A stretch of 32,423 nt of DNA from Acidimicrobiia bacterium (GTDB lineage: Bacteria > Actinomycetota > Acidimicrobiia > Spongiisociales > SHLN01): the NCBI GenBank assembly GCA_029862065.1, contig JAOTYB010000006.1, forward strand, positions 1-32,423, written 5' to 3'. Below, in pieces: positions 5,984 to 23,336 of this stretch. Below the pieces are notes generated by a model, which did not search any database, was not told where the DNA came from, and saw nothing but the letters and a program-made list of their open reading frames with translations. Position 1 is the first letter of the stretch. Each line of letters begins with the position of its first letter. A program made the position numbers and the translations under genes.

Positions 5984-6173
5984 TTGTCCCAACGATTGAG
6001 TCTTACGACCTATCGAAGTTTCGGCGGTAACTAGTTAGATTTCTCCATGACTCCCAAACCACGTGGGGGTCCTTGGCAGGAATAGTGTTTGCAACTACGC
6101 TGAGTGAGCGACCACTAAGAGTGGGGACTAGGGTAATAGCGTGGCTAACGGGGTTAGAGGGCGGAGAATCCAG

Positions 6174-6854
6174 ATGACACAAGCAGCCGAGACCATCGGG
6201 CGCCAACCACAGGTTGCGTCGGCTGAGGCGATGGCGGGCGTACGCCACCGGGGCTTCTACGAACGGTTCGTCAAGACCCTCATCGACCGACTGGTCGGCT
6301 TAGTTCTCTTGCTGTTGACCCTCCCAATCATCATTCCGGTTGCCATCGCCGTCTTCATAGATCTGGGTGGACCCATCTTCCTCCGCCAAGAACGGGTCGG
6401 GCGCAACGGCAGGGCCTTCAAAGTCCTGAAGTTTCGTTCAATGGAACCCGACCGTCGCGGCGGGTCGGCCCCCGATTTCGTTGGCTCAGACCGGCGGGTC
6501 AATCACAAGTCGGAGGACGACCCCCGGCTCACTCCGGTCGGCCGATTCATCCGCAAATGGAGCCTCGATGAGCTCCCCCAGTTGGTGAATGTGGTCGCCG
6601 GACAAATGAGCCTTGTCGGGCCGCGACCGGAGATGACTCAGATCGTTGCCCGGTACGAGCCCTGGCAGCACGCTCGCCACCTGGTGAAGCCCGGCGTCAC
6701 CGGCCTCTGGCAGGTATCGGCCCGGGGAGAAGTTCCCATGCACGAAGCCACCCACATCGACCTGGAATATGTCAATACCGTGTCGTTTGTGACCGATATT
6801 CGTATCCTGGCCAGAACCATTCCAGCTGCGCTCGGAGAACGCACCGGCCACTAG
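6174..6854 (+). CDS. Bacterial sugar transferase (polyprenyl-phosphate glycosyl-1-phosphate transferase, WcaJ/EpsL-like)
   Basis: [57 protein letters not shown]...[27 protein letters not shown]...[18 protein letters not shown] 6141 is an alternative start. Confidence 0.95.
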
Positions 6855-6879: not shown

Positions 6880-6946
6880 GTTTACACTGCTACTAGCCGG
6901 GGGGTCCCGTGATGATTGCCTCCCAACACCCACCAAAGGACGATTG

Positions 6947-8932
6947 ATGGACACCCTCCGCCCGAGAGAGTTTGATGAGTTAGCCGCCCTCGAGCAGCCG
7001 AGCATTGTCGCTTCGATGTGGCGCTACCGCTGGTTGGTCGCTCTCATCGTTGCTGTGTTCATCGGCCTCGGGCTGGCGTTCCAGGCCTATGTCCCGGCGG
7101 CCTTCCAAGCCACAGCCGAGATGGTGGTTGAGGATCCGCGAGCATCGCAGCTCTTCAACATCGGCGATATCCCCCGATCGACGAGCAACCCGCAGCGGTA
7201 TGTGGCCGACCAGGTGGAGATCTTGCGATCGCCCCGGGTGGCTGATGAGGCCGCAAGGCTCATCAGCCTGTGGGCCGCCAACACTCCAGAGGCGCTTAAT
7301 GGCGATCCATTCACGATAGAAGACGACCTATGGCCCTTTTGGCTCGACCAGCGTGACATCGCCGGTGTGGCGATTTCCCAGGACGAGTTCTTGTCCAACA
7401 TAAGCATTTCCTCCAGCCGCGATAGTAACCAGGTAGAGGTTTCCTTCACGGCCGACACGGCCAAGCTATCCCGCATCGGCGCCAATGCCCTCGTCGAGTC
7501 CTACCAGGACGTGCGGTTCGAGCAGTTGAAGGACACCGCCAACAAGGCCGTGCTGCAAATCGAGCGTCGGCGAACCGGATTGCGCTCAGACCTTGACGAT
7601 CTCCAGGCGCAGATCGACAGCATTACCGACGAAGTGCGCTCGGGTTTGGACGAAGAGTTCGAAGCCGACCTCGGTACGTTCCTCGACCTCCAGCGTCAGC
7701 TCAACGGCCTCGACCCGGAGAGCGACGCCGCCGCGACAGTCCGCTTGCAATTGGATGACCTATTACAAGATTTCCAGACCACCGCAGTCATCGACACGAT
7801 CGAGGCGGGTGACTCCGAGCTACAGGCGCTCCTCGCCGAGCAAGAGGCCGGGATTGACGAGTTGGCGACGCTGTCCGGCCGGGCCAACTCCATCCTCATC
7901 GATCTGGAGCTGACCGGCAGCGGCGTTACCAACCTCTCGCTGGCCCCGACCCCCAAGACCACCACCGGCTCGGGCCCGGCTCGCATTCTCGCCGCTGCCA
8001 TCGTGCTCGGCCTGGCTGTGGCCGCTGCCCTCACCTACTTCCTGGCCTCCCGCCGCCGGGCCTTCGGCAGTCGGACATTGCCGGAGCTCGTGCTCAACGC
8101 TCCGTTGCTGGCCGAGGTCCCCGACTTCTTGTTGGAGGGAATCAAGTCGCCCCTGCCCGTCACACAAGCGCCGACGTCGGCGTCGGCTGAAGCCTTCCGC
8201 TTTGCCGCGGCTGCCGTCGACATCCGGGCTTCGGCGGCCGGCGCCAAGTCGCTGATGATGGTTTCCGCCACCCTGGCCAGCGGAAAGACCACTGCGGCCG
8301 CCAACACAGCCATCGCAGCCGCCCGTGAGGGCTTGCGAGTGCTCGTCATCGACGCCGACTTCGGCAACCAGGAGCTGACCAGCCTCTTCCTTGGAGAGGA
8401 GCAGCCCGCAGCCGGCATTACCGAGGTGGTGGCCGGCATCGTGCCGCTTGATCAGGCCGTGCGTCAGGTGGTAGTCACCGACGATCGCTCGCTCTATCTG
8501 TTGTGGCGTGGCCGCCAGCCGGTCGAAGCCGCCAACTTCTTCCGTACCGAGGACACCCAGCGGTTCTTCACCGAAGTCAAGGAGCAGTTTGACCTGGTCA
8601 TCATCGATGGTCCGCCGCTCTTGCAGGTCGCCTACGCCAGCACTCTGGTTCGCTATGTCGACGCGGTGGTGGCGATTGTTGCCCACAACAGTCGTGTCAG
8701 CGAGCTGGAAGAGGTTGCCGACCGGCTCCACTTCATCGAGACGCCGGCCATCGGATATATCTACACCAAGGCGCCTTTGCGTGCCGAGATGACGGCCTCT
8801 GAGGGCTCGATGAAGGACATCCTCGGTCTCGGTGGCGAATCCGCCGGCCGGCCCACGGTCGGCCAGACCCGCTCAACCCGCCGCTCCCGTCGGGACGCCG
8901 GCAACGGCGGTGACTCGGCTCCGAAGAGCTAG
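6947..8932 (+). CDS. Wzz/Wzc-like polysaccharide chain-length determinant fused to BY-kinase-type ATPase (copy 1)
   Basis: N-terminal Wzz TM (WRYRWLVALIVAVFIGLGLAF), Walker A (SATLASGKTTAAAN), Walker A' (VLVIDADFGNQ), Walker B (LVIIDGPPLL). ATG 6947 preceded by AAAGGA. Confidence 0.93.
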   Translation: MDTLRPREFDELAALEQPSIVASMWRYRWLVALIVAVFIGLGLAFQAYVPAAFQATAEMVVEDPRASQLFNIGDIPRSTSNPQRYVADQVEILRSPRVADEAARLISLWAANTPEALNGDPFTIEDDLWPFWLDQRDIAGVAISQDEFLSNISISSSRDSNQVEVSFTADTAKLSRIGANALVESYQDVRFEQLKDTANKAVLQIERRRTGLRSDLDDLQAQIDSITDEVRSGLDEEFEADLGTFLDLQRQLNGLDPESDAAATVRLQLDDLLQDFQTTAVIDTIEAGDSELQALLAEQEAGIDELATLSGRANSILIDLELTGSGVTNLSLAPTPKTTTGSGPARILAAAIVLGLAVAAALTYFLASRRRAFGSRTLPELVLNAPLLAEVPDFLLEGIKSPLPVTQAPTSASAEAFRFAAAAVDIRASAAGAKSLMMVSATLASGKTTAAANTAIAAAREGLRVLVIDADFGNQELTSLFLGEEQPAAGITEVVAGIVPLDQAVRQVVVTDDRSLYLLWRGRQPVEAANFFRTEDTQRFFTEVKEQFDLVIIDGPPLLQVAYASTLVRYVDAVVAIVAHNSRVSELEEVADRLHFIETPAIGYIYTKAPLRAEMTASEGSMKDILGLGGESAGRPTVGQTRSTRRSRRDAGNGGDSAPKS

Positions 8933-8975: not shown

Positions 8976-9108
8976 AATAGGCGATAGGCGATAGGCGATA
9001 GGCAAAACCTAGTTGGTGCACCGCCTCGGGTCCCCGAGATACTGCGTACTGCGTACTGCATACTGCGTACTGCTTGCCGCTCAACTGTCAACTGTTGACT
9101 TGGCTGCC
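8976..9108. repeat. Heptad-array element, locus A
   Basis: AATAGGC (GATAGGC)x3, 35-nt core AAAACCTAGTTGGTGCACCGCCTCGGGTCCCCGAG, ATACTGC GTACTGC GTACTGC ATACTGC GTACTGC TTGCCGC TCAACTG TCAACTG TTGACTT; seven-base phase kept throughout. Confidence 0.9.
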
Positions 9109-10388
9109 TATCCGCTCGCGATGGCTGCTCTGATAGCGGCCTCGAGTGTGGCATGGGCTTCGGCAGTGTTGAGGTTGGGTGTGTTGTCGAGCCCGGAGGC
9201 CTGATAGAAGTGGGTCATCGCCGCTCCGAATTGTTCGGCGATCTCCTGGCGGGACCCGGGTGACACCAACCGCACCCGACCGGGGTCGATGGCAGATTCC
9301 GCCACGGTCTTGGCGCCACCGTTGGCGAACACGATGACCGGCGCGCCGCGCTGCATTGCCTCAGCCAGCGCGGTCCCGCCCTCCTCCCGAACGCCGGCGA
9401 ACACCACTGCCCCGGCCCGGTCGAGCAGATCCATTGCTTCCGGGTAGGGGAGCCACCCTCGGAGGTCGACCCGATCAAGGAGGCCGAGTTCCTCGATCAG
9501 GCCCTCTAGCGCCGACCGTTCCGGGCCATCGCCGACGATCACCATGCGCACGTCCGGGTGGGCCTCGGCCAACCCGCGGACGGCCAATCGAACCCCCTTG
9601 CGCGTCTCGAACGACGACAGAAACAGTATGAAGTCCTCCCGCGGTTTGGCGACCCGGTCGACCTCAGTGAACATGACATGGTTGAGAACCACGTCGGCCG
9701 GACGGGGCCTCCCGAGCCGCGCCTGGGTCTCTTCGCTTTGGGCGATGCGCACGGCTGCCTTCCGCCAGGTCCGCCGGGTAGCGGGGGCCAGCGACAAGAC
9801 CCGAACTGCGATGAGGTCGATCAACTCGGATGCGATGCCTTTCGCTCCCAGAGCCCGCCACATGTCTGACGGAGTGGTAACAGCACCGCCGACCGGGCCC
9901 CAGGCCAGAGGAATCGGGAGGCGACGCCCCGGAGAGGGCAGCCAGTAGACGGAGTAGGTGGCGTGATGGGTCACGTCGAAGGGTCGGTCCGCGTGGAGCT
10001 TTTTCGCCAGTCGCCGAGCGCTGCGCTGCCACCCCAGGTATGCGATGAAGTACCCGATTAAGTGTCTTCGCGACTTGTCGGTAGGCGCATGTGGCAACCA
10101 GCGCGCCCACTTCGGCTCGTTGACGAGTTGGAATTCGATCGTGGAATCCGGGTTCTCGCGCTCCCATTCCTGGATTGCGCCGATGTGCTCAGGTCCGACC
10201 AGCACGGTCAGTTCGCCGAACCGGGCAACCGACTGGACCAGGCTCCAGCCAACCCCTGGTTCGGATCCCCTTCCCGGTTCGCAGGCGTAGGCGATTACCA
10301 AGACACGCGGGCGCCGAGTCTCGGATGGAGCGGAGAGATTTGCTTGGCTCACCAGGCCTGTCGATTCGTGGCCGATCGACTTCGCCAT
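9108..10388 (-). CDS. Glycosyltransferase family 4
   Basis: RPRVLVIAYACEPGRGSEPGVGW...FILFLSSFETRKGVRLAVRGLAEAHPDVRMVIVGDGPERSALEGL...EEGGTALAEAMQRGAPVIVFANGG. Confidence 0.92.
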   Translation of the reverse strand: MAKSIGHESTGLVSQANLSAPSETRRPRVLVIAYACEPGRGSEPGVGWSLVQSVARFGELTVLVGPEHIGAIQEWERENPDSTIEFQLVNEPKWARWLPHAPTDKSRRHLIGYFIAYLGWQRSARRLAKKLHADRPFDVTHHATYSVYWLPSPGRRLPIPLAWGPVGGAVTTPSDMWRALGAKGIASELIDLIAVRVLSLAPATRRTWRKAAVRIAQSEETQARLGRPRPADVVLNHVMFTEVDRVAKPREDFILFLSSFETRKGVRLAVRGLAEAHPDVRMVIVGDGPERSALEGLIEELGLLDRVDLRGWLPYPEAMDLLDRAGAVVFAGVREEGGTALAEAMQRGAPVIVFANGGAKTVAESAIDPGRVRLVSPGSRQEIAEQFGAAMTHFYQASGLDNTPNLNTAEAHATLEAAIRAAIASG

Positions 10389-11791
10389 TTCCCGACCGTT
10401 CCTTCAGTGGCCACGACCGAGCCAAGTCCGTAGATGCTCCACAGCCAAACGGCAGCCTGGGGACCTTCCAAGCTGGGGTCAAAGAAGCCATTGATGAGGG
10501 CCGCCATCGCTCCCACCATGCACCACGAGAGGACGGCGGCTTTCTGTGATTCGCCCAACTGGCTCAGCCGTTTTCGAGCCCTCCATAGATACACATACCA
10601 GACGGCCCACAATGCCACCCAGAGACTCGTTCCGATCAGGCCCATGCGGGCGAGCACCGATAGATGTGAGTTATGGGGATTGCGCAATTCGGGGCCCGTT
10701 TCCGCACCAGCATAGAACCCGTATTTACCGGCGAGGTTCGGCCCAAAACCGAAACCAGATAAGAAACGCTCGTTCGTCAACGTGTCGTCCAGTACGAGGT
10801 CCCAGAGCTCGAGTCGCCATGCAATGGTGCCATCATCCTCACCGGTACCCGGCTCGGCCCGGACGTTGATGTCGGTGATATTTGAAAACAGCTGGGATAT
10901 TGAGACTTCCCGTCGCTCCAAGTCGAACCGCACATCGAATGCAAAAGCCAGCAACATCGCGGCTATGAGAACGACCAGAACGTTGCCCATTGCCGGCCGC
11001 GCCCGCTTGCCTGCCAAGTAGATCGCAAAGAGAGCTATGAAGCCGGCGACCAGTGTGCCTCGGTTTTGGGTTCCCGCCAGAGCGAGCAAGAGAAGTCCGC
11101 CGACGGTAAGAAGCACATTTCGCACACGGTCACGTCGCTCCACTTCGGGTGCGACGACCAGCAAGAGAAAGGCGATCGCAATAACCGCCTGTACCCCCAC
11201 GTTGCCCGGCTTGTGTGACGTGATCAGGACCTCCGAGTCGGGCAGGAACAACCCGGTCTGCCGGTTGGCCAGTAGAAGACGCACCGTCCCGATCATCAGA
11301 AAGGCCGGGATGATCCTCGTGTACCAGCGAATGAACAAGTCATACGCCGGCTCCCAGGCCCGGACCAATGCCCCCAGGACAATTGCGAACAACCCGTAGT
11401 AGAAGATGGCGCTGTCACGCACCGCCTCTTGAACGGGGTTGGAAGTTGCGCCCAGGATGAGGAGCATGAATCCGAACCCCATGAAAGCGACAAGAAACTG
11501 CATCGGCAGACTCAGTCGGATGAATCGAACCGCCTCACCGGATCGGATGACGACATAGAGCCCGAGCGCCAGTATGAACTCGCCGACGAACAACGGTGTC
11601 CCTGGCACATGGATCCACGCGAACGCACGGTCGAAAAAGAGGTAGCCGCCGAGCAGGACGGCCAGCGCTCTGGTCAGGAAGCGGTAGCGGGCAGTGCGGT
11701 CTTTCAGCGCACTGGCGATCAACGCCTTTGAGGCGGACCCGTGCTCATTGCGGGGCGACCGTTCAGGAGGTGAGAAGATCGAGTCGGTCAC
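10349..11791 (-). CDS. O-antigen ligase / Wzy-type polymerase-like polytopic membrane protein
   Basis: About 10 or more TM segments; periplasmic-loop motif ELRNPHNSHLSVLARMGLIG characteristic of the Wzy_C/WaaL families. Confidence 0.85.
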   Translation of the reverse strand: MTDSIFSPPERSPRNEHGSASKALIASALKDRTARYRFLTRALAVLLGGYLFFDRAFAWIHVPGTPLFVGEFILALGLYVVIRSGEAVRFIRLSLPMQFLVAFMGFGFMLLILGATSNPVQEAVRDSAIFYYGLFAIVLGALVRAWEPAYDLFIRWYTRIIPAFLMIGTVRLLLANRQTGLFLPDSEVLITSHKPGNVGVQAVIAIAFLLLVVAPEVERRDRVRNVLLTVGGLLLLALAGTQNRGTLVAGFIALFAIYLAGKRARPAMGNVLVVLIAAMLLAFAFDVRFDLERREVSISQLFSNITDINVRAEPGTGEDDGTIAWRLELWDLVLDDTLTNERFLSGFGFGPNLAGKYGFYAGAETGPELRNPHNSHLSVLARMGLIGTSLWVALWAVWYVYLWRARKRLSQLGESQKAAVLSWCMVGAMAALINGFFDPSLEGPQAAVWLWSIYGLGSVVATEGTVGKWRSRSATNRQAW

Positions 11792-11846
11792 GCGACGCTC
11801 TCCTCTCGCCGGGTCGTCGTTGCCCTAGCAGGACGGTTTGCCGCGG

Positions 11847-12809
11847 CTACGCGGCGCCTTCTTTAACCTGCTTTTCGATCCAGCGATAGGTATCGACTAG
11901 GCCTTCTTCGAGGGCAGTAGTCGGTTCCCATCCGAGGACCTCGCGCAGCTTAGTGTTGTCGGAGTTTCGGCCCCGCACGCCCTGCGGCCCGTCGACGTGC
12001 TTGAGCGTAATCCCTTGCTTGCCGGAGATCTCGATGACGATCTGCGCCAGCTCGTTGATCGTGACCATGCGGTCGCGACCCAGATTGAGCGGCTCGGTGT
12101 AGCCCGAGTCCATAAGACGGACGAGGCCTTCCACGGTGTCGTCCACGTGACAGAAGGAGCGGGTTTGCTCGCCGTCACCCCAGATCTCGATCGTTCCACC
12201 GTCTTCGACCTCGGCGACCTTGCGGCACAGCGCGGCCGGGGCCTTCTCGCGTCCGCCGGTCCAGGTGCCGTAGGGCCCGTAGATGTTGTGGAAGCGGACC
12301 ACTCGCACGTCCATGCCGTAGTCGAGGTGGTAGTAGTGGGCGGCGATTTCTGAGACAAGCTTCTCCCACCCGTAGGCGTCCTGGGGAGCTGCCGGATAGG
12401 CGTCTTCCTCTTTGAGAGGCGTGACGTTGGCGTCCTCCTGGAGGTACTCCGGGTAGATGCAGGCCGACGACGTATAGAGGTACTTCGAGACCCCATTCTC
12501 CCGAGCCGCCTCCAAGGTGTGCAGGTTGATGAGGGCGTTGTTGTGGAGAATGGTCGAGTGGTTGGCCGAGATGAAGCCCATGCCGCCCATGTCGGCGGCC
12601 AATGCGTAGACGTGGTCGACGTCCTTGGTGGCCTCCTGGCAGGCTTCCCAACGGCGGAGGTCGAGGATCTTGAACTCATCGGCGTCGATGTCACTGAATT
12701 CGGGTTCCTTGATGTCGACACCCCGGACCCAGTAGCCGCGGTTACGGAGATCGGTGACGAGGTGGTGGCCGATGAATCCGCCGGCTCCGGTGACGAGTAC
12801 TCGTTCCAT
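11847..12809 (-). CDS. GDP-mannose 3,5-epimerase-like SDR epimerase
   Basis: GAGGFIGHHL NAD motif; ADMGGMGFI, SSACIYPE, PAAPQDAYGWEKL, FHNIYGPYGTWTGGREKAPAALCRK, GPQGVRGRNSDN match remembered plant GME motifs nearly word for word. Confidence 0.88.
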   Translation of the reverse strand: MERVLVTGAGGFIGHHLVTDLRNRGYWVRGVDIKEPEFSDIDADEFKILDLRRWEACQEATKDVDHVYALAADMGGMGFISANHSTILHNNALINLHTLEAARENGVSKYLYTSSACIYPEYLQEDANVTPLKEEDAYPAAPQDAYGWEKLVSEIAAHYYHLDYGMDVRVVRFHNIYGPYGTWTGGREKAPAALCRKVAEVEDGGTIEIWGDGEQTRSFCHVDDTVEGLVRLMDSGYTEPLNLGRDRMVTINELAQIVIEISGKQGITLKHVDGPQGVRGRNSDNTKLREVLGWEPTTALEEGLVDTYRWIEKQVKEGAA

Positions 12810-12876
12810 TTTCAGTAGTTCCTTCTCTTTGGGTGGCCCTGTTCAGAGCTTGCTGGGCAAATGGCTCGGATGCCAC

Positions 12877-13692
12877 TCACTGTACTTCACTTTCCGCGGT
12901 TGTATCGGGGGCTTGGGGTCCCCGATACAACTCGGTAACGGTGACTAAACGGGGCGGTCTCCGGAGCACCCGGAACACGAACCGAGGGTTGTTTCCCAGG
13001 TAGCGCTTCCACAGCCTGCGAGGCTCCTTGAGCAGGCGATAGAGCCACTCGAGACCCCGCTTCTGCATCCATGCTGGGGCCTGGGGAAGCAGGCCGGCGT
13101 GGATGTCAAAGGCGGCTCCCACTCCGAGGAGGGCGGGAGCATTGAGCCGAGCCCGGTTGGCGTCCATCCAGCGTTCCTGCTTGGGGGTGCTGAGGCCGAC
13201 CCATACGAAGTCGGGCCCGGCGCGGTTGATGGAGCTGGTGATCTCGGTGACCTCGGCCTCGGTGAGGTCACGGAAGGGCGGCGAGTAGGTCCCGACCACT
13301 TTGAGGCCCGGAAACAGTTCGCCGAGACGGGCGGCCAGCAGTTCGGGGACACCCTCTTTGCCGCCGTAGAAGAAGTGGGTCCAGCCTGCGGCCGCCGACC
13401 GACCGAGGATCTCCAGCATGAGGTCCGGCCCATACACGCGAGACATATCGATGGCTCCGGCCCGCTTGCCCGCCCACACCATCGGCATCCCATCGGGGGT
13501 CGTGAGCCCGGATCGATTGTGGATGCGCAGCAAGTCGGGGTCGGCCTGCGACTCCATAACGCCGTGAACGCCGGTTACGCACACGTAGTGCGGCTCGTTC
13601 TCGTCCACCCAGCGGCTGAGCTCCGCCACCGCGCTCGTCATGTTGATCGCGCTGATGCCAACGCCCAAGACGTCTACTCGAGGGATTCCCAT
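12877..13692 (-). CDS. WecG/TagA/CpsF family glycosyltransferase (GT26)
   Basis: RVDVLGVGISAINM...HYVCVTGVHGVMESQADPDL...TTPDGMPMVW...VYGPDLM...WTHFFYGGKEGVPELLAARL...PDFVWVGLSTPKQERWM...GVGAAFDIHAG. The track ORF extends further upstream, but that part is a shadow of the next gene. Confidence 0.95.
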   Translation of the reverse strand: MGIPRVDVLGVGISAINMTSAVAELSRWVDENEPHYVCVTGVHGVMESQADPDLLRIHNRSGLTTPDGMPMVWAGKRAGAIDMSRVYGPDLMLEILGRSAAAGWTHFFYGGKEGVPELLAARLGELFPGLKVVGTYSPPFRDLTEAEVTEITSSINRAGPDFVWVGLSTPKQERWMDANRARLNAPALLGVGAAFDIHAGLLPQAPAWMQKRGLEWLYRLLKEPRRLWKRYLGNNPRFVFRVLRRPPRLVTVTELYRGPQAPDTTAESEVQ

Positions 13693-13699
13693 GGAAGAA

Positions 13700-14881
13700 T
13701 TATCGACGCTCGGAGGTGGGACCTGAAATGGTACGAGCGACCCTTTCATAGACCGCTTCCAGCCCGGCCAGGCCGTGCTGTTCGGAGTAGCGGTCCTCAA
13801 AGAGGCGTCGGGCGCTGGTTGATCCGGCGGCGACGTGAGCGCGATCTTGCAGGCGAGCCAGGCCCTTGGCCAGGTCGTCCGGGTCGCCCGGTCGGGCCAG
13901 CCAGTCGGGCCCGAGCGGGGCAACGACTTCGGGAATCGGGCCGATGTCGGATGCGAGAACGGGCACGCCGGCAGCCAATGCTTCCAGCAACACCATGCTG
14001 AGGCCCTCGTACCAAATCGATGGCAGAACCAGTGCCCGGGCTTCGAGCATGTGGGACCGCACCGCTGATTGGTCCACCTGACCCAGAAGGGACACACTGG
14101 GCAGACCTCTCCGTCGCAGGTCGGCCTCGAGCGGGCCGACGCCGATGATGTCGAGCTCATAGTCGAGCCCGGCTCTCTCCCACGCATTAAGCAGCACGTC
14201 GGGAGCCTTCTCGGTGGTGAGCCGGCCAACGAAGAGCACCCGGTTGGAGTCTTCGGCCGCCCGGGTGCGGGGCCCGGGGTCGGGTACGAAATTGGGTTTC
14301 ACCGCGATCCGGTCGGCCGGGATCCCGCTTTCGATGAAGCGGTCACGGGCGAAATCGGTGAGAGCAAGGATGAGGTCGAGGTCTTTGCGCCAGGTCCCCC
14401 GCCGGCGGTTGAAGGCGATCGTCGAGGCCGATGCCAATGACTGGGTGTAGCTGTCGAGGTAGCACTTGTAACGCACGCCGTACCAGGCGTTCTGGCTCGC
14501 GACACACAGTTCGCATGCCTGGTTGTCTCGCAGCAACATGGCGTTGGCGCAGGCCAGCCGGTAGTTGTGGAGCGTGAGAACGGTTGGCGAGAACTCCCGA
14601 GCTGCCCGAAACACGGAGGGGGACAGGTGGTACCAGGTGTTGTGGAAGTGGGTGACGTCGGGGGCGTGCACCCGAACCAGGTCACGGACTCGCCGGGCGG
14701 CCGCCGGGTTCCAGGGGCTTCGGATCATGTCGCCGGCGGCGGCCAGCGGTCCCGGCGGGTTCTGCTCCCGATGCTCGATGACCGAATGCCCGGCGTCCCG
14801 CAACAGTTCCGCCTCATTGGAGGCCACCGAGTCCTCTCCACCCGGCTGACGATACTGGGTGTGGATCTGGAGGATTTTCAC
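13700..14881 (-). CDS. Glycosyltransferase family 4
   Basis: MKILQIHTQYRQPGGEDSVASNEAELLRDAGHSV...NRVLFVGRLTTEKAPDVLLNAWERAG...PSIWYEGLSMVLLEALAAGVPVLASDIG. Confidence 0.94.
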   Translation of the reverse strand: MKILQIHTQYRQPGGEDSVASNEAELLRDAGHSVIEHREQNPPGPLAAAGDMIRSPWNPAAARRVRDLVRVHAPDVTHFHNTWYHLSPSVFRAAREFSPTVLTLHNYRLACANAMLLRDNQACELCVASQNAWYGVRYKCYLDSYTQSLASASTIAFNRRRGTWRKDLDLILALTDFARDRFIESGIPADRIAVKPNFVPDPGPRTRAAEDSNRVLFVGRLTTEKAPDVLLNAWERAGLDYELDIIGVGPLEADLRRRGLPSVSLLGQVDQSAVRSHMLEARALVLPSIWYEGLSMVLLEALAAGVPVLASDIGPIPEVVAPLGPDWLARPGDPDDLAKGLARLQDRAHVAAGSTSARRLFEDRYSEQHGLAGLEAVYERVARTISGPTSERR

Positions 14882-15279: not shown

Positions 15280-17574
15280 ATGTACATGAAACGCCTAGCT
15301 GCGGCTATCGCTGTCTTTGCCATACTCGTACCACTGCAAGGAGCCATCGCCGGCGCCGACTCGACTTCCGGTACTGAGGTGGCCTTCTACGATCCGGGCT
15401 CGTCCAGCTGGCACATTCCCGGTGGCGACAGCTTCTACTACGGAGCCCCCGGCGACACCCCACTGTTGTGCGACTGGAACGGCGACGGTATCGCCACTGT
15501 CGGCGTGTATCGCGAGACCACCGGGTATCTGCTTCTGAGCAACGGACTCAGCACCGGAGTCGCCGACTATGAGTTCTACTACGGAAACCCGGGCGACCGG
15601 CCGCTGTGCGGAGACTGGAACGGCGATGGTGTTGACACGATTGGCATCTTCCGTCCGTCCGAGTCGCGGTTCTATCTGCGCGACACCAACTCGCTGGGAT
15701 TTGGGGACCGGGACTTCCAATTCGGTTTCTCCAAGGGGCTGCCGTTTGCTGGGGACTTCAATGGCGACGGTTACGACACCGTTGGTGTGCGTGATCCCAA
15801 GAACGGGTTCGTGGCCATCGCCCGCGGGCATGTGTCAGACGCGCCGGTGATGGAGGCCTACTTCGGGTCGTCCTCCGACACCCTGGTCGTCGGTGACTGG
15901 GACGGCGACGGCACCGATCGCATCGGCGTCTATCAGCCGGCCACCAAGACCCTGGCGGTCACCAACCTGTTCGGCACCGACAAGATCGCCCACGTCTATG
16001 ACCTGGGTGCTGTGACTGGCATCCCCCTCGCTGCCGAATTCGATGGTTCCGGCGGAGTCCAAACCAAGCATCCCGAGTACACGGGTGAGCTGGCCGACGT
16101 CGTCAAGCCAAAGGCGCAACCCGCTCCGGCAGCTCCGGCTCCGGCTCCGGCTCCGGCCGAGGAGCCCCCGGTTGAGCAATCGGCCACTCCTGTCCCAAGC
16201 GCCGCCCCGGCCTCCCCGATCGTCAAGCCGGCGGTTTCCATTCCCGGCAACGCGATCCGGATCGCCCCGGGCACCAGCATTCAGTCTGTAGTAGATCAGA
16301 ACGGTGGCAGTGCCACGTTCTTGATCGGCGCAGGTGTCCATCGCGAACAGTCGGTGAAGCCCAAGTCCGGCCAGACCTTCATCGGAGAGTCGGGTGCGGT
16401 GATGAGCGGTGCCCGGCTTCTCGAGGGTTGGCAGCGCGATGGCAATCTGTGGTTCGTCGGCGGACAAGGTCAGTCTGGCCGCTTGCACGGCGACTGTGTC
16501 TCGGGAGCTCCTCGGTGCAACTACCCCGAGGAGCTGTTTGTCAACGATGCCCGCATGAAGCATGTTTCGTCCAAGGGCTCAGTCGCAGCCGGTAGTTGGT
16601 TCTTTGACTACGGTTCCGACCGGATCTACATCGGCCAGGACCCGGCAGGCAAGCGAATCGAGACTTCGGTAACCGAGAGCGCCTTCACCGGTCAGGTGTC
16701 GAATGTCACGATCACCGGATTGGTTATCGAGAAGTACGCCAGCCCGGCCCAGGTCGGCGCGATCGATACGCGGGCCAACCCGAGCGGCAACACCAACGGC
16801 TCGGACTGGTTCATTGCCAACAATGAGGTCCGCAACAACCATGGTGTCGGCATCAAGTCGACCAACGGCAGCCGGGTGGTTGGCAACTACGTCCACCACA
16901 ACGGCCAGCTTGGCCTGGGTGGCGACGGTCCCGGAATGTTGATCGAGAACAACGAGATCTCCTACAACAATGCCTCGGGCTACGCCTACGGCTGGGAGGG
17001 TGGCGGCACCAAGTGGTCGAAGTCGACCGACCTGGTGGTTCGGAACAACTACTCGCACCACAACGTCGGTCCCGGCCTGTGGACTGACATCGACAACATG
17101 AACACGCTGTACGAGGGCAACCGAGTCACCAACAACGTTGGCATCGGTATCTTCCACGAGATCTCGTACAAGGCGGTCATCCGCAATAACTACATCGAGG
17201 GCAATGGCGCAGGCCACTCGGCGTGGTTGTGGGGAGCGGGCATCGTGGTGGCGGCTTCGCCCGATGTTGAGATCTACGGCAACGAGGTCATCAACAACGC
17301 CGACGGTATCGCCGGTATCCAGCAAAACCGCTCGGATGCTCCGGCCAGCTTCGGCCCGCAGATTGTCGCCAACCTGTACGTGCACGACAACAAGATCACG
17401 ATGAGTGAAGGTCACACCGGCCTCGTGCAGGACGTCGGTGACAACGCGGTGTTCACCAGCCGCAACAACCGCTTCGAGAACAATGAGTACACGCTCAACG
17501 GTTCCGACCGTCGGTTTGAATGGAACAACGGAGAGCGCAGCTTGCAAGAGTGGAACTCGTTCGGCCTGTCTTGA
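15280..17574 (+). CDS. Secreted protein: FG-GAP/VCBS-like DWNGDG repeats + Pro/Ala linker + right-handed parallel beta-helix (paralog 1)
   Basis: Signal peptide (MKRLAAAIAVFAILVPLQGAIAGA); repeats CDWNGDGIATVGVYR, GDWNGDGVDTIGIFR, GDFNGDGYDTVGV, GDWDGDGTDRIGVYQ; C-terminal N/G-rich beta-helix rungs (NNEVRNNHGVGIKSTNGSRVVGNYVHHN...). Confidence 0.9.
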   Translation: MYMKRLAAAIAVFAILVPLQGAIAGADSTSGTEVAFYDPGSSSWHIPGGDSFYYGAPGDTPLLCDWNGDGIATVGVYRETTGYLLLSNGLSTGVADYEFYYGNPGDRPLCGDWNGDGVDTIGIFRPSESRFYLRDTNSLGFGDRDFQFGFSKGLPFAGDFNGDGYDTVGVRDPKNGFVAIARGHVSDAPVMEAYFGSSSDTLVVGDWDGDGTDRIGVYQPATKTLAVTNLFGTDKIAHVYDLGAVTGIPLAAEFDGSGGVQTKHPEYTGELADVVKPKAQPAPAAPAPAPAPAEEPPVEQSATPVPSAAPASPIVKPAVSIPGNAIRIAPGTSIQSVVDQNGGSATFLIGAGVHREQSVKPKSGQTFIGESGAVMSGARLLEGWQRDGNLWFVGGQGQSGRLHGDCVSGAPRCNYPEELFVNDARMKHVSSKGSVAAGSWFFDYGSDRIYIGQDPAGKRIETSVTESAFTGQVSNVTITGLVIEKYASPAQVGAIDTRANPSGNTNGSDWFIANNEVRNNHGVGIKSTNGSRVVGNYVHHNGQLGLGGDGPGMLIENNEISYNNASGYAYGWEGGGTKWSKSTDLVVRNNYSHHNVGPGLWTDIDNMNTLYEGNRVTNNVGIGIFHEISYKAVIRNNYIEGNGAGHSAWLWGAGIVVAASPDVEIYGNEVINNADGIAGIQQNRSDAPASFGPQIVANLYVHDNKITMSEGHTGLVQDVGDNAVFTSRNNRFENNEYTLNGSDRRFEWNNGERSLQEWNSFGLS

Positions 17575-17651
17575 GCTCCGCCGCTCTCCGGATTGGCGTT
17601 AGTGACACAGAGCGCTTATTGTCCCGGTGCGCTGACATGGGTTTTTGAGAA

Positions 17652-19805
17652 ATGGGCTGGAGAAAACGGATATTGCGTCGCCCCTTGCTGGTGGCATTTG
17701 CCCTGGTAGCGGCCGCGGTGGTGGGAGTTCCCCCCGCTGCGGCAGTCGATGGTGGGCCACAGGTGGCCTTCTACGACTCAAGCCTCGGACTGTGGCGCAT
17801 GGAGGGCATCGGGGACTTTTACTACGGCATCCCGTCCGACCAGCCGATGCTCTGCGATTGGAACGGTGATGGGACCGAGACGGTGGGGCTGTACCGTCCG
17901 ACTACCGGGTTCCTCCATCTTCGCCAGCAGAACAACTATGGATTTGCCGACGTCTCGATCTACTTCGGGATCCCCGAGGATCGCCCGGTCTGCGGTGATT
18001 GGAACGGCGACGGCATCGACACCGTTGGCGTGTACCGATCGTCGAACCGAACCTTTTACCTGCGGAACTCCAATGTGACCGGGATCGCCGAGCAGCAATT
18101 CACGTTCGGTGACGGTAACGGCACGCCGATCGCCGGCGATTGGAATGGCGACGGAAAAGACACCGTTGGCCTGTGGAAGCAGGGGAACGCGTACTACGAG
18201 CTCTCAAACGGGAACACGAGCGCCATCGGCCCCCACGCGTTCCTCGGTAATCCCGGGGACCCGGTGGTGGTAGCCGACTTCGACCAGAACGGTCGCGACA
18301 CCCTTGGCGTGTACCGGACCACCAATGGGCGCCTGTACCTCAGCGGTCTTGGTGAAGATGGCGGGACCCCTCGTGAATACTCGGTCGGGCTCCATGTTGG
18401 GATTCCGGTCGGTGGCGTAACCGGCGGAACTCCCGCCTCACCGGTCGGCGGTGCTGGCGGTGGTGGTGGCGGCACCGTGCCACCCGGAGCAATCAGCGTG
18501 TTCCCCGGCTCCAGCATCCAAGACGCCATCAATGCGGCCTCCGATGGATCGACCCTGTACATCCGGTCGGGCACCCACCGCATGCAGCGTTTCTCGCCCA
18601 AGTCCGGTCAGACAATCATTGGGGAGCCGGGAGCGGTTCTTAATGGATCGAAGGTGCTGAGCGGCTGGTCGCAAGACGGCGGCCAGTGGTGGGTGGGTGG
18701 CCAAAGCCAGCAGGGCGCTCAAGTTGGCGTTTGCGAGAACGCCAGCTCGCGTTGTCGCTACCCAGAAGAGCTGTTCATCAACAATGCTCGTCTCGAGCAC
18801 GTCAATAGTCGCTCGGCAGTTGGGCCCGGGAAGTGGTTCTTCGACTACGGCGCCGACCGCATCTACATAGGGGACAACCCCTCGGGCAAGACCGTCGAGA
18901 CCAGCGTGACGGAAGGGGCCGTTTACGGGAATGCCCCGAACGTCACCATCACCGGCCTGATCGTCGAGAAGTACGCCAACCCGGCCCAGCACGCCGCCAT
19001 CGACAACCGCCGCCACAACGGGGACGGCGGGGCCGACAACTGGGTCATCTCCGGCAACGAAGTCCGCTGGAACCACGGGGTGGGGATAAAAGTCGGCAAG
19101 AACGCCCGGGTCGAGAACAACAACATCCACCACAATGGGCAGCTCGGTGTGGGCGCAGTGGGGAGCGGGGCCGTCTTCAGTGGCAACGAAATCGCCTACA
19201 ACGGCCAGCTTTCGTTTCTGCTGGATTGGGAGCGGGGTGGATCCAAGTTCGCCGACACCACCAACATCCAGCTTCTCAACAACTACGTTCATCACAACTG
19301 GGGCCCCGGTTTGTGGGCCGACGACAACGCCAAGGACATGGTGTTCGCCAACAACACCATCAAGAACAACACCAAGGCCGGCATTTACTTCGAGATCAGC
19401 TACGACGCCCTCATCCGTGACAACTACATCGAAGGCAACGGGTTCGGGTTCACGCCCTGGCTGTGGGGCGGGGGGATCGTTATCTCGTCTTCTTCCGGAG
19501 TCGAGATTCGCGGCAACACCGTCGTCAACAACGCCGATGGCATCGGGGCGGTCGAACAGGATCGCTTTGAAACGGCCAAGTACGGGCCGCACATCATTCA
19601 GAACCTCTACGTCCACGGCAACACGGTCACCATGTCCGATGGGCTTACCGGCGTTGCCCAGGATGTCGGCTCAACCGCGGTGTTCACCAGCCGCAATAAT
19701 CGGTTCGAGAACAACACCTACAACCTGAGCGGCTCAGGCAACTGGTTCGAGTGGGACAACCGCCAGATGTCCTTCGACGCCTGGCGTGGCTACGGTCTCA
19801 ATTAA
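17652..19805 (+). CDS. Secreted protein: DWNGDG repeats + Gly-rich linker + parallel beta-helix (paralog 2)
   Basis: Same architecture as 15280-17574; signal peptide LLVAFALVAAAVVGVPPAAA; repeats CDWNGDGTETVGLYR, GDWNGDGIDTVGVYR, GDWNGDGKDTVGLWK, ADFDQNGRDTLGVYR; collinear beta-helix. Confidence 0.9.
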   Translation: MGWRKRILRRPLLVAFALVAAAVVGVPPAAAVDGGPQVAFYDSSLGLWRMEGIGDFYYGIPSDQPMLCDWNGDGTETVGLYRPTTGFLHLRQQNNYGFADVSIYFGIPEDRPVCGDWNGDGIDTVGVYRSSNRTFYLRNSNVTGIAEQQFTFGDGNGTPIAGDWNGDGKDTVGLWKQGNAYYELSNGNTSAIGPHAFLGNPGDPVVVADFDQNGRDTLGVYRTTNGRLYLSGLGEDGGTPREYSVGLHVGIPVGGVTGGTPASPVGGAGGGGGGTVPPGAISVFPGSSIQDAINAASDGSTLYIRSGTHRMQRFSPKSGQTIIGEPGAVLNGSKVLSGWSQDGGQWWVGGQSQQGAQVGVCENASSRCRYPEELFINNARLEHVNSRSAVGPGKWFFDYGADRIYIGDNPSGKTVETSVTEGAVYGNAPNVTITGLIVEKYANPAQHAAIDNRRHNGDGGADNWVISGNEVRWNHGVGIKVGKNARVENNNIHHNGQLGVGAVGSGAVFSGNEIAYNGQLSFLLDWERGGSKFADTTNIQLLNNYVHHNWGPGLWADDNAKDMVFANNTIKNNTKAGIYFEISYDALIRDNYIEGNGFGFTPWLWGGGIVISSSSGVEIRGNTVVNNADGIGAVEQDRFETAKYGPHIIQNLYVHGNTVTMSDGLTGVAQDVGSTAVFTSRNNRFENNTYNLSGSGNWFEWDNRQMSFDAWRGYGLN

Positions 19806-19829
19806 CCGCAGGGCCATAGACTCGACCCC

Positions 19830-21371
19830 GTGAAACCTTCACCCGGCCTGCTGGCCTTACGTCGCGACCTGGCTATTCCGCTGGCCATCCTGGGGGCGAC
19901 AATTCTGGTGGTAGCGGTGGTGGCCTGGCAGTCGGGAGCCGACGCCGGTCCGGCGGACGCCGCACCGCCCGGGACCGTCCCCGACGAGCGTGGATCAACC
20001 CAATCCGAGGGATCCACCACCACTCTTGCCCCGCTCGTGGCATCCGGGCCACCCACCCTGGTGGTGACGCCCGACGATGATCTCTCGAGCCTGGTGGCCA
20101 CCAGCCCGCCCGGATCCACCTTCGTCCTTGCCCCCGGAGTCCATCGGGGCGAGCTGCTGGAGCCCAGAGACGGGCAGGTGTTCACCGGCCGGCCCGGGGC
20201 GGTGCTCAGCGGTGCAGTGGTGGTGACCGGTTTTCAAGCTCGGGGAGCCATGTGGGTGGCGCAGGGGTTGGAGGCCGAAGGCCGGATTCATGGTCAGTGC
20301 TCGGGCGACAGCCCACGATGTTCATACCCGGAGGATCTGTTCATAGACGACCAGCTGCTGACTCATGTCGATTCGGCCGCACGGGTGGGGCCGGGGAGCT
20401 GGCACTTCGACCGAGGTGCCGACACCATCTACCTGGGCGAGAATCCGACAGGCCGAATCGTTGAGTTGAGTGTGGTGACTCACGCCTTCCGAGGCGACGC
20501 CGACGGGGTGACCATCGCCGACCTGGTGATTGAGAAGTATGCGGTGCCCGCCCAGGAAGGTGCCATCGACAGCCGTCGCGACACCAACGACCTGATCGGT
20601 GGCTCCGGCTGGGTGATCCGCGACAATGTTGTGCGGTGGAATCACGGAGTGGGCATCGCCGCCACCACCGGGGCGCTCGTCGAGGGAAACCAGGTCTACG
20701 AGAACGGCCAGCTGGGGATGGCCGCCAAGGGGGCAGGCGTGACCATTGTTGGAAATGAAGTGTATGGAAACAACACCGTCGGCTTCAGCACCGGCTGGGA
20801 GGCGGGTGGCAGCAAATTTGCCTTCACCCAGGGCCTGGTGGTTCAGGACAACTTCATTCACGACAATGACGGGCCGGGGTTGTGGACTGACATAGACAAC
20901 ATCGACACCACCTACGAGGGCAACCGGGTTATCGACAACACCGGCGCCGGGATCTATCACGAGATCAGCTATGACGCAGTGATCACCGGCAACGAGGTGC
21001 GCGGCAACGGATTTGGCTTCGATGCCTGGGTGTGGGGGGCGGGGATCCTCGTGTCGACCTCGGTGAACGTAGAGGTAACCGACAACCTGGTCTCCGGCAA
21101 CGCCGACGGCATCGTCGGCGTCGACCAGGACCGTTCTGATGCGCCAGCTTCCTACGGGGCACTCTCGCTGCAAAACCTGTCCGTCAGCAACAACGTGATC
21201 GCCGACAACGGTGGGTGGAGTGGGATAGGTCAGGACCGTGGCGACAACGCCGCTTTTAACTCGGCCAACAACCGCTTCTTCGACAACTCGTATACCCAGG
21301 ACGGTCGGCACTTTTTCTGGTTGAACGACCCTCGTACCTACGACGAGTGGGTGGCCTACGGCCAGGGGTGA
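19830..21371 (+). CDS. Membrane-anchored parallel beta-helix protein (paralog 3, no DWNGDG repeats)
   Basis: GTG start; N-terminal TM (LAIPLAILGATILVVAVVAW); beta-helix domain collinear with the two upstream paralogs. Confidence 0.88.
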   Translation: MKPSPGLLALRRDLAIPLAILGATILVVAVVAWQSGADAGPADAAPPGTVPDERGSTQSEGSTTTLAPLVASGPPTLVVTPDDDLSSLVATSPPGSTFVLAPGVHRGELLEPRDGQVFTGRPGAVLSGAVVVTGFQARGAMWVAQGLEAEGRIHGQCSGDSPRCSYPEDLFIDDQLLTHVDSAARVGPGSWHFDRGADTIYLGENPTGRIVELSVVTHAFRGDADGVTIADLVIEKYAVPAQEGAIDSRRDTNDLIGGSGWVIRDNVVRWNHGVGIAATTGALVEGNQVYENGQLGMAAKGAGVTIVGNEVYGNNTVGFSTGWEAGGSKFAFTQGLVVQDNFIHDNDGPGLWTDIDNIDTTYEGNRVIDNTGAGIYHEISYDAVITGNEVRGNGFGFDAWVWGAGILVSTSVNVEVTDNLVSGNADGIVGVDQDRSDAPASYGALSLQNLSVSNNVIADNGGWSGIGQDRGDNAAFNSANNRFFDNSYTQDGRHFFWLNDPRTYDEWVAYGQG

Positions 21372-21416: not shown

Positions 21417-23336
21417 CTACGGCGCCGGGCTGTCGGTGGCGGCGGGTCGCTCGGGGGCGGGGGCGGGATTGGCCTGCCGCTTCTTCGGCATCGACCCCGG
21501 GGCGGCAGCCGCTCCCGGTACCTTGGACCATCGCTTCAGCAGGCCTTTGCTCGGTTCGCCGTTGCTGCGCATAGTCGCGACGCCTCCGCCGAGAATGTCC
21601 TTGAGGGAGCCTTCGATGTCGGTCTGATCAGCCCGCAGGGGTGACCGGTTGTAGATGTACCCGACCGGCTTGGTGCCGATGAACTCGAGCCGGTCGACGA
21701 CCTCTTCGAGCTCGGATACGGCTCCGCCGTGATTGACGACCAGCAAGGCCCCGTCGGCGTAGCGAGAGATGATGCTCGTATAGGCAACATGCAGCAGCGG
21801 AGGAGTGTCGATGAGGACGAGGTCGAACTCGTCGCGAATGCCTTCGAAGAACACCCGGGTGGCCGCGCTGCGAAAGAAGTTGGCGGCGATAACCGGACGG
21901 TGGCCGCGGGACAGCAGGTTGAGAGAGGCACCGTCGGCGACGGGGACTGTGACGATGGCCCGGCGCAGATCGGCCCCGGTCTCCACGACCTCGGTGATGC
22001 CCGTGGCGGGCGGGATGTTGCCTACCAGGAGCTGGCTGAGGTTCTGGCTGCCAAAGTCAGCGTCCACCACCAGGACCCGATTGCCCTCACGGGCAGCTGC
22101 CATGGCGGCGTTGGCCAGCACTGTCGTTTTGCCATCGCGGGCGCTGCCAGAGATAACGACCAGGCTGCGGGCGCCGGAGGAGGCCGACTGAATGTCGAGG
22201 GCGGCGGCGGCGAATCGGAACGCCTCCGCCGTTCGGGTCTGTGGCATGTCCTGCACGGGGAGGGCGGAGGTGATGCCTTCGTCGGCGAAGCGTGGGACTT
22301 CGGAGATGATCGGGGCGTCGATGACGATCTCAGGCTCGGCGCGGCTGGTGAAGCTGCGGCGGCGGATGGCGATGGAGTAGGCGGCGCCCATTGCCAGGAA
22401 AGAGGCAGCCACGGCGCCGATAATCCCGGCCCGGGTCGCTTCGCGCCCGTCACCTTTCGGCAGCGGGGCAGGCGAGGTGAGCGATATGCCTCGGGTCACC
22501 AGCTTGGAGTCGACGGCGATCTCGTCGCGGCGGGTCTCGAGGGTTGAGCGCCGAGCGATGGTGCTCTCCAGTTCCTGAATCAGCGGGCTGAGGGTGGGGT
22601 TGGTGCTCTCAACACTCTGGATCTCTTGATAGGTCTGTACCTGCAGCAGGAGGTCGGACAGCTCGAGGCGGATGGCGGCAGCCCGGATGTCGGAGGTTGT
22701 GTCTGCCAGCTCATCCTGCAATGCGACGATCCGGTCGACGGCGCGGGTGAACTGTCCATCGAGATCGGCTCGGAGCAGGCTGGATGAGCGGGCGACGGCC
22801 ACTCTGGCCTGAATATCGAGCACCTGGTTGTCCACCTCGGCCAGGGAGGCGTCGAGCTCGGCCAGGGCAGCTTCGGCGCTGGTCTCGGCCGTCTCTTCCT
22901 TCACCTGTTGATAGGCGGCAACGAGGGCATTGGCCACGATCTGCGCCTCTTGCTTGTCCGGACCGGAAACCCGAATCGTGATGAGGCTGCTGTCGGAGTC
23001 TCCGTCGATGGTCGACATGTCGCTGACGTCGTTGTCGAAATCGGGAAGTTGGGTGAGAACGATGGCCTCAGCACTGTTCTCCACAGCCGGTGAGTCGAGG
23101 ATCTGAACCTGATCCGCTGTGTAGCGGTCGGATTGGGCCGACCGAGTCGAGTCGAAGACGGTGATCGCGCCGGGATCCTCCACGATCAGCTCGGCCTTGG
23201 CGGTGAACACCGGCGAGGTAAACGTCGCCCAGGCGACACCGAGTACGGCGCCGACCATGACCAGGAATAGGACGAGCCACTTGTAGCGCCATACGGCGCC
23301 CGGAATCGTCGGATCGAGCGGTGAAATGTCGTTCAT
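21417..23336 (-). CDS. Wzz/Wzc-like chain-length determinant/ATPase (copy 2)
   Basis: WRYKWLVLFLVMVGAVLGVAW; Walker A (SGSARDGKTTVLAN), A' (VLVVDADFGSQ), B (LVLIDTPPLL); collinear with copy 1. Confidence 0.92.
   Translation of the reverse strand: MNDISPLDPTIPGAVWRYKWLVLFLVMVGAVLGVAWATFTSPVFTAKAELIVEDPGAITVFDSTRSAQSDRYTADQVQILDSPAVENSAEAIVLTQLPDFDNDVSDMSTIDGDSDSSLITIRVSGPDKQEAQIVANALVAAYQQVKEETAETSAEAALAELDASLAEVDNQVLDIQARVAVARSSSLLRADLDGQFTRAVDRIVALQDELADTTSDIRAAAIRLELSDLLLQVQTYQEIQSVESTNPTLSPLIQELESTIARRSTLETRRDEIAVDSKLVTRGISLTSPAPLPKGDGREATRAGIIGAVAASFLAMGAAYSIAIRRRSFTSRAEPEIVIDAPIISEVPRFADEGITSALPVQDMPQTRTAEAFRFAAAALDIQSASSGARSLVVISGSARDGKTTVLANAAMAAAREGNRVLVVDADFGSQNLSQLLVGNIPPATGITEVVETGADLRRAIVTVPVADGASLNLLSRGHRPVIAANFFRSAATRVFFEGIRDEFDLVLIDTPPLLHVAYTSIISRYADGALLVVNHGGAVSELEEVVDRLEFIGTKPVGYIYNRSPLRADQTDIEGSLKDILGGGVATMRSNGEPSKGLLKRWSKVPGAAAAPGSMPKKRQANPAPAPERPAATDSPAP

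Follow-up and report, generated by a model that had tools for sequence, protein, structure and literature searches.

Three beta-helix genes in an extracellular polysaccharide island

In this article, I discuss three adjacent genes, BH1, BH2 and BH3, on the forward strand of a 32,423-nucleotide stretch of DNA (hereafter the window: contig JAOTYB010000006.1 of assembly GCA_029862065.1, positions 1 to 32,423) from an Acidimicrobiia bacterium, which are predicted to encode relatives of glycoside hydrolase (GH) family 120 within an island for extracellular polysaccharide (EPS) synthesis. The source genome is a fragmented metagenome-assembled genome (MAG), 79% complete, and the genomes related to it are labelled Acidimicrobiia or Acidimicrobiaceae. 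The genes and their domains, in window positions, are:

15280..17574, + strand: BH1, 764 aa; signal peptide, five-repeat FG-GAP-like propeller and predicted GH120-like beta-helix (open reading frame (ORF), Pfam, alignment)
15370..16065, + strand: BH1 propeller module (repeats in the sequence; AlphaFold2 (AF2) model of the BH2 equivalent, pLDDT 93.8)
16243..17571, + strand: BH1 beta-helix domain; predicted nucleophile D603 (17086-17088) and acid/base E627 (17158-17160), with E573 and K578
17652..19805, + strand: BH2, 717 aa; signal peptide, propeller and predicted GH120-like beta-helix (ORF, Pfam, alignment)
17748..18437, + strand: BH2 propeller module (repeats, AF2 model, Foldseek)
18474..19802, + strand: BH2 beta-helix domain; predicted nucleophile D557 (19320-19322) and acid/base E581 (19392-19394), with E527 and K532
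19830..21371, + strand: BH3, 513 aa; N-terminal transmembrane (TM) anchor and predicted GH120-like beta-helix, no propeller (ORF, Pfam, hydropathy)
20049..21368, + strand: BH3 beta-helix domain (modelled); predicted nucleophile D354 (20889-20891) and acid/base E378 (20961-20963), with E324 and K329

A first-pass annotation had described three neighbouring same-strand genes with collinear, closely similar beta-helix domains, and the ORFs bear this out: PF13229 (Beta_helix) is matched by all three proteins (E 1e-20 to 5e-38), and their C-terminal ~440 aa are collinear over the full length with many invariant residues, including the motifs picked out in that annotation, at identities of 53% (BH1-BH2), 50% (BH1-BH3) and 46% (BH2-BH3), far beyond chance. 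BH3 also carries two disulfide candidates, C157 and C164.

A predicted fold and active site akin to GH120

A GH120-type pair, an invariant Asp in a GLWxD motif and an invariant Glu in xEISY on the next coil, was noted before any fold search was made. A Foldseek search of the PDB with an AF2 model of the BH3 beta-helix (pLDDT 93.8, pTM 0.92) ranked the GH120 xylosidase XylC of Thermoanaerobacterium saccharolyticum first (3VST; E 7.5e-16, TMq 0.68), followed by the epimerase AlgE6 (E 3.6e-9) and the GH141 enzyme BT_1002 (E 7e-9). The link can also be drawn at the sequence level, where it is based on one GH120 sequence together with the fold search: a protein from a Terriglobia genome (locus L167) is a genuine GH120 member (PF21258, E 8e-29) that aligns to 3VST across D382 and E405, and the BH family is collinear with it over ~300 columns in hhalign, inserted beta-sandwich included, at a score of 84-91, where an unrelated CEMIP beta-helix scores ~20 and shuffled or reversed controls reach 14-20. 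In XylC numbering this profile alignment equates BH3 D354 with Asp382, E378 with Glu405, E324 with E353 and K329 with K358, and mutation of the equivalents of Asp382 and Glu405 in GH120 enzymes abolishes activity (PMC8954004). Across the family the Asp is kept in 120/120 sequences, the Glu in 118/120 and the Lys in 119/120, with a D-E spacing of 24 throughout; since the seed pattern of the second genome scan had the GLW tryptophan as its last residue, conservation of that W is biased, whereas that of D, E and K is not. The BH domains are therefore predicted, from model and alignment, to be GH120-like glycoside hydrolases, with a retaining mechanism expected because of the homology.

Straight membership of GH120 was considered and rejected: BH1-3 give no match to the GH120 insertion-domain model PF21258 at E<=0.01, which makes the BH family a relative of GH120 and not a member. 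The same model found no GH120 in 120 genomes of the phylum and none in controls either, so that this search is uninformative on whether GH120 is absent from the phylum. Single-sequence searches of genome contigs and the PDB returned nothing relevant, and profile searches did find matches.

The family also varies in its architecture. Copies without the insert (lacking profile columns ~56-142) occur at loci L058, L060, L066, L067, L068, L101, L104 and L108, often sharing the locus with another copy, insert-bearing in several cases, which suggests open and closed active-site variants used together. Tandem expansion is seen elsewhere, a Luteitalea MAG having four beta-helix genes in a row (L092:5322-16022), and in a Nitrospirales MAG (L093:5481-10489) a double-domain protein lies beside a single-domain one, one of the domains having Met in place of the acid/base Glu.

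Linkage to Wzy_C and polysaccharide genes across phyla

The neighbours of the beta-helix genes were surveyed at 80 loci from many phyla, which, once duplicates were removed, left 61 loci with 120 immediately neighbouring ORFs. Wzy_C accounts for 26/120 of these and glycosyltransferase group 1 for 10/120, the remainder including Wzz, WecG, sugar transferase and polysaccharide deacetylase, while among ORFs lying beyond 7.5 kb at those loci Wzy_C makes up at most 2/120 (it falls outside the 25 commonest families). With the far count set at 2, Fisher's p is 8e-7, a value that overstates independence because loci are related within genera. Wzy_C genes average ~4 per genome in 16 of the surveyed genomes, and I estimate chance adjacency at ~0.1%, taking several thousand genes per genome. 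The adjacent polymerase is on the same strand as the beta-helix gene in all 19 of the 19 cases detected by a custom Wzy profile and nearly always lies directly upstream, often overlapping in ORF coordinates; the mechanical calling of ORFs at these loci exaggerates such overlaps and overlooks some neighbours. Wzy-linked homologs come from Kribbella, Pseudonocardia, Bradyrhizobium and Bosea, to which Pfam adds Acidobacteriota. Annotated plasmids of Azospirillum and Skermanella agree with the polysaccharide linkage, one placing an O-antigen ligase family protein and a glycosyltransferase near the homolog, and the other a WecB/TagA/CpsF transferase, a sugar transferase and a UDP-glucuronic acid decarboxylase.

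That decarboxylase, of the UDP-xylose synthase type, belongs with the beta-helix gene to a Skermanella cluster (L170:1024-2034), and taken with the xylosidase activity of GH120 it hints, weakly, at a xylose-containing polymer. A further relative, at L070:3297-11647 (G003:C8), is a protein of at least 2783 aa that adjoins a Wzy homolog and combines the GH120-like beta-helix with apiosidase, GSDH, GDSL esterase, F5/F8, FG-GAP, PKD and fn3 domains.

The island and its conservation

The genes around the triplet in the window are:

6141..6854, + strand: initiating sugar transferase (Bac_transf; PF02397, E 5e-61)
6944..8932, + strand: Wzz + AAA_31 (Wzc-like), copy 1 (Pfam)
9108..10388, - strand: GT4 glycosyltransferase (Pfam)
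10349..11791, - strand: Wzy_C polymerase/ligase family membrane protein (PF04932, E 2e-17)
11847..12809, - strand: NAD-dependent sugar epimerase/dehydratase (Pfam)
12877..14229, - strand: WecG/TagA/CpsF glycosyltransferase (Pfam)
13700..14881, - strand: GT4 glycosyltransferase, divergent from BH1 (Pfam, synteny)
21417..23336, - strand: Wzz + AAA_31 (Wzc-like), copy 2 (Pfam)

As first described, the triplet sits between glycosyltransferase/Wzy genes, here the minus-strand block 9108-14881 on its left, and a Wzc paralog on its right. The island thus holds two Wzz+AAA (Wzc-type) genes, and the second, at 21417-23336, is convergent with the beta-helix genes.

The beta-helix domain was found at E<=1e-20 in 18/99 genomes searched, the source genome counted. 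Four further genomes (G002, G003, G004 and G006) keep the order BH1-BH2-BH3 at their EPS locus and have the flanking glycosyltransferase, Wzc, zincin and trypsin genes in common as far as their contigs extend, except that no Wzc match is listed between BH3 and the zincin gene in G002 and that G004 has a short Wzc-like fragment only. In a tree of 120 domains (a quick method with SH-aLRT support only), the copies of BH1, BH2 and BH3 from the five genomes fall into three separate orthologue clades, with BH1 and BH2 as sisters, so the triplet predates these genomes and no copy has since been lost. Pairwise dN/dS among orthologues is 0.07-0.17, a rough estimate given that dS exceeds 1, and these sequence comparisons indicate that all three are under purifying selection.

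A propeller module and the location of the proteins

In BH1 and BH2 the ~230 aa after the signal peptide form a separate domain that the first-pass annotation had overlooked, a propeller of five ~46-aa repeats resembling CDWNGDGxxTVGVYR, which BH3 lacks. The AF2 model of the BH2 propeller has 20 strands at a pLDDT of 93.8, and Foldseek matches it to FG-GAP propellers, best to a secreted Streptomyces griseus esterase (9OEE); the Pfam cut-off for FG-GAP is not reached, PF13517 scoring 18.9 bits in BH2 where 26.9 are required. The same propeller occurs, N- or C-terminally, on ~20 other secreted proteins of the source genome (loci L071-L086, on G000 contigs C3, C6, C44, C65, C66, C77, C131, C144, C152, C211, C214, C218, C242, C248 and C255), whose other domains are SpoIID, CAP, GH26, subtilase, GSDH, M23, G8/CEMIP, CHRD, DUF3048, YkuD (L,D-transpeptidase), GDSL, M15, apiosidase and PASTA. 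A propeller on so many passengers is a general module of secreted proteins, and it may serve as a tag that retains them on the surface or within the matrix.

The assignment of signal peptides, lipoboxes and TM segments comes from visual inspection and hydropathy. BH1 and BH2 have signal-peptide-like N-termini, and that of BH3 is hydrophobic with no clear cleavage site; among BH3-type proteins the N-terminus is a TM segment in the family of the window and a lipobox-like LxxC in others, so that tethering is kept by differing means. The earlier proposal of soluble versus tethered copies thus stands for BH3, which is membrane-tethered by its N-terminal TM segment, and has to be revised for BH1 and BH2, whose propeller implies probable retention and not free solubility.

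Homologs in phages

Homologs are also present on 15 IMG/VR contigs, several with adjoining phage genes, which makes the sharing with phages real, and the predicted Asp/Glu pair is intact in 5/6 of the phage-contig copies inspected. Four of these contigs (L173, L174, L177 and L179) are phage-like and carry homologs with the catalytic pair, the one on L173 near a head-maturation protease; these are likely phage depolymerases of the beta-helix family. An origin of the triplet from phage tailspikes was rejected, since BH2 and BH3 are unmatched in PHROGs and 50,697 phage records gave one weak match.

What the triplet may do

From the computed fold, the residue correspondence with GH120, the conservation, synteny, Wzy linkage and module architecture, I infer catalytic activity, the EPS as substrate, the cutting of one of its linkages, and a division of labour: BH1-BH3 are probably three specialised, secreted, retaining glycoside hydrolases of GH120-like type that cut the EPS made by their own island. 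The nucleophile would be the Asp of GLWxD and the acid/base the xEISY Glu on the next coil, with a conserved W-E-x-G-G-x-K on the preceding coil assisting catalysis. BH3, on the membrane where the newly polymerised chain emerges, would trim or release that chain, while BH1 and BH2, which their propellers would hold on the outside of the cell or within the matrix, would remodel the polymer once it is complete. Structure prediction, phylogeny and co-occurrence, which the first-pass annotation had proposed as checks, gave a GH120-like fold, three orthologue clades and linkage to EPS genes, and neither of the refuting conditions it had set, an absence of conserved cleft residues or homologs consistently without EPS genes, was seen, as far as the tools allowed. 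The annotation's polysaccharide-processing role outside the cell is supported by EPS synteny, Wzy_C linkage across phyla, an enzyme-like cluster of conserved residues and the phage homologs. A CBM60 module fused in one relative also speaks for the GH120-like glycanase reading.

Several observations weigh against this interpretation. To the unmatched PF21258 may be added a paralogous subgroup of the family that is entirely without the insert, and a hidden Markov model search of the PDB from sequence alone that found AlgE epimerases (E 1e-7) and not XylC. Not all homologs adjoin Wzy_C, some adjoining Wzz, Poly_export or glycosyltransferases and others having no obvious EPS gene nearby within the sequence examined; and the BH genes of the window lie on the strand opposite to the Wzy operon, so that co-transcription with Wzy is not shown there.

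Among other explanations, the one that comes closest, though improbable, is that these are retaining transglycosylases which pass the cut chain to a surface acceptor (protein, lipid or another chain) and so cross-link or anchor the EPS. The retaining Asp/Glu mechanism would allow this and GH120 enzymes do perform transxylosylation (PMC8954004); the membrane tether of BH3-type copies, the surface-type propeller of BH1 and BH2 and the tight linkage to Wzy_C, some members of which are ligases, would all suit it, but the phage homologs and the precedent of hydrolases in EPS clusters fit cutting better, and an acceptor site is not indicated. It is less probable again that the enzymes forage on foreign polysaccharide such as plant xylan, with EPS genes merely nearby: GH120 enzymes are xylosidases, one relative carries the xylan-type module CBM60, and other propeller proteins of the source genome include apiosidase- and GH26-like domains, yet the direct linkage to Wzy_C, Wzz and glycosyltransferase genes recurs across phyla, synteny is kept in the relatives of the window, and no sugar transporter or catabolic gene adjoins the BH genes in the window.

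The first-pass annotation had noted that the fold is common in lyases, epimerases and depolymerases, and polysaccharide lyases or alginate-type C5-epimerases do belong to the same beta-helix class, with AlgE4 and AlgE6 as the best PDB sequence-profile matches, an AlgE enzyme second in Foldseek, and RbmB, an EPS beta-helix enzyme, being a lyase (PMC11637428). This chemistry is nevertheless very unlikely and was rejected on motif and fold ranking, as the DPHE residues of AlgE are missing from the aligned stretch, which reads NHGVGIKS/NHGVGIAAT, Foldseek favours XylC by ~7 orders of magnitude in E-value, and the conserved acidic pair is that of GH120. The least probable reading is that of catalytically dead proteins that keep the fold in order to bind or scaffold EPS. 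Beta-helix repeats can bind glycans, and the activity of the BH proteins is a prediction, but Asp, Glu and Lys are kept in 118-120 of the 120 sequences, in several phyla, at fixed spacing and in all three paralogs, and the Asp and Glu persist in most of the phage-contig copies.

A broader and more tentative proposal is that an unrecognised glycosidase family sister to GH120 pairs with Wzy_C in several phyla and acts co-synthetically, setting the length or surface attachment of chains as they leave Wzy, here being split into a tethered form and two forms borne on a propeller that would serve as a general retention tag. The family, with its predicted retaining mechanism, is broad, being tied to Wzy_C in Acidobacteriota, Actinomycetota and Pseudomonadota and found also in phages; it would help to explain the trimming or anchoring of Wzy-made polymers among uncultured bacteria, and would be a source of candidate EPS depolymerases for which neighbouring genes indicate the cognate polymer.

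Comparison with known systems

No characterised enzyme of this beta-helix family, and no description of the family or of its pairing with Wzy, was found in the open-licence literature; the family is apparently undescribed and the triplet a predicted variant within the EPS-cluster glycanases. Its closest counterpart is XylC, in which, as in the BH domains, the beta-helix core is broken near its N-terminus by a beta-sandwich insert and a GLWxD nucleophile is followed one coil later by the acid/base Glu, the coil before the nucleophile bearing a conserved E and a conserved K. However, GH120 is beyond the reach of phmmer and hmmsearch, has a D-E spacing of 23 where the BH family has 24, differs in its long loops and serves in xylo-oligosaccharide use, whereas the BH family is found in the context of EPS clusters and has some relatives without the insert. 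GH141 (BT_1002, PDB 5MQP; Xyn141E; fucoidanases) is also among the top Foldseek fold families and shares the PF13229 core (PMC5593877), but its catalytic pair is two Asp (D523/D564) 41 residues apart (PMC5593877, PMC12786026); membership of GH141 is unlikely by comparison with these published residues and spacing, the conserved BH pair being Asp/Glu at 24. The mannuronan C5-epimerases AlgE/AlgG are likewise beta-helix EPS enzymes and contain the catalytic DPHE/DPHD motif missing in BH. The propeller resembles the FG-GAP/VCBS propellers of integrin alpha, PVL lectin and 9OEE in its GDWDGDG repeats and best Foldseek match, and is unlike them in being a compact module of five ~46-aa repeats used on many passengers in one genome.

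Glycanases that cut the polymer of their own cluster are known in a few systems, mostly those of pathogens (PslG, PelA, PgaB, WceF and RbmB). PslG, PelA and PgaB have other glycosidase folds. As is predicted for the BH proteins, they and RbmB/VexL degrade a polymer and are encoded together with the genes for its synthesis, RbmB being, unlike the BH prediction, a beta-helix lyase (PMC11637428), and the Bep cluster of Burkholderia contains a beta-helix gene, Bcam1339 (PMC3584217). Likened by description, the stewartan hydrolase WceF of Pantoea stewartii is, as BH1-BH3 are predicted to be, a beta-helix glycanase from a Wzc-containing EPS cluster, and its knock-out leads to longer EPS chains (PMC7949094), but WceF is a trimeric, tailspike-like protein encoded by a single gene.

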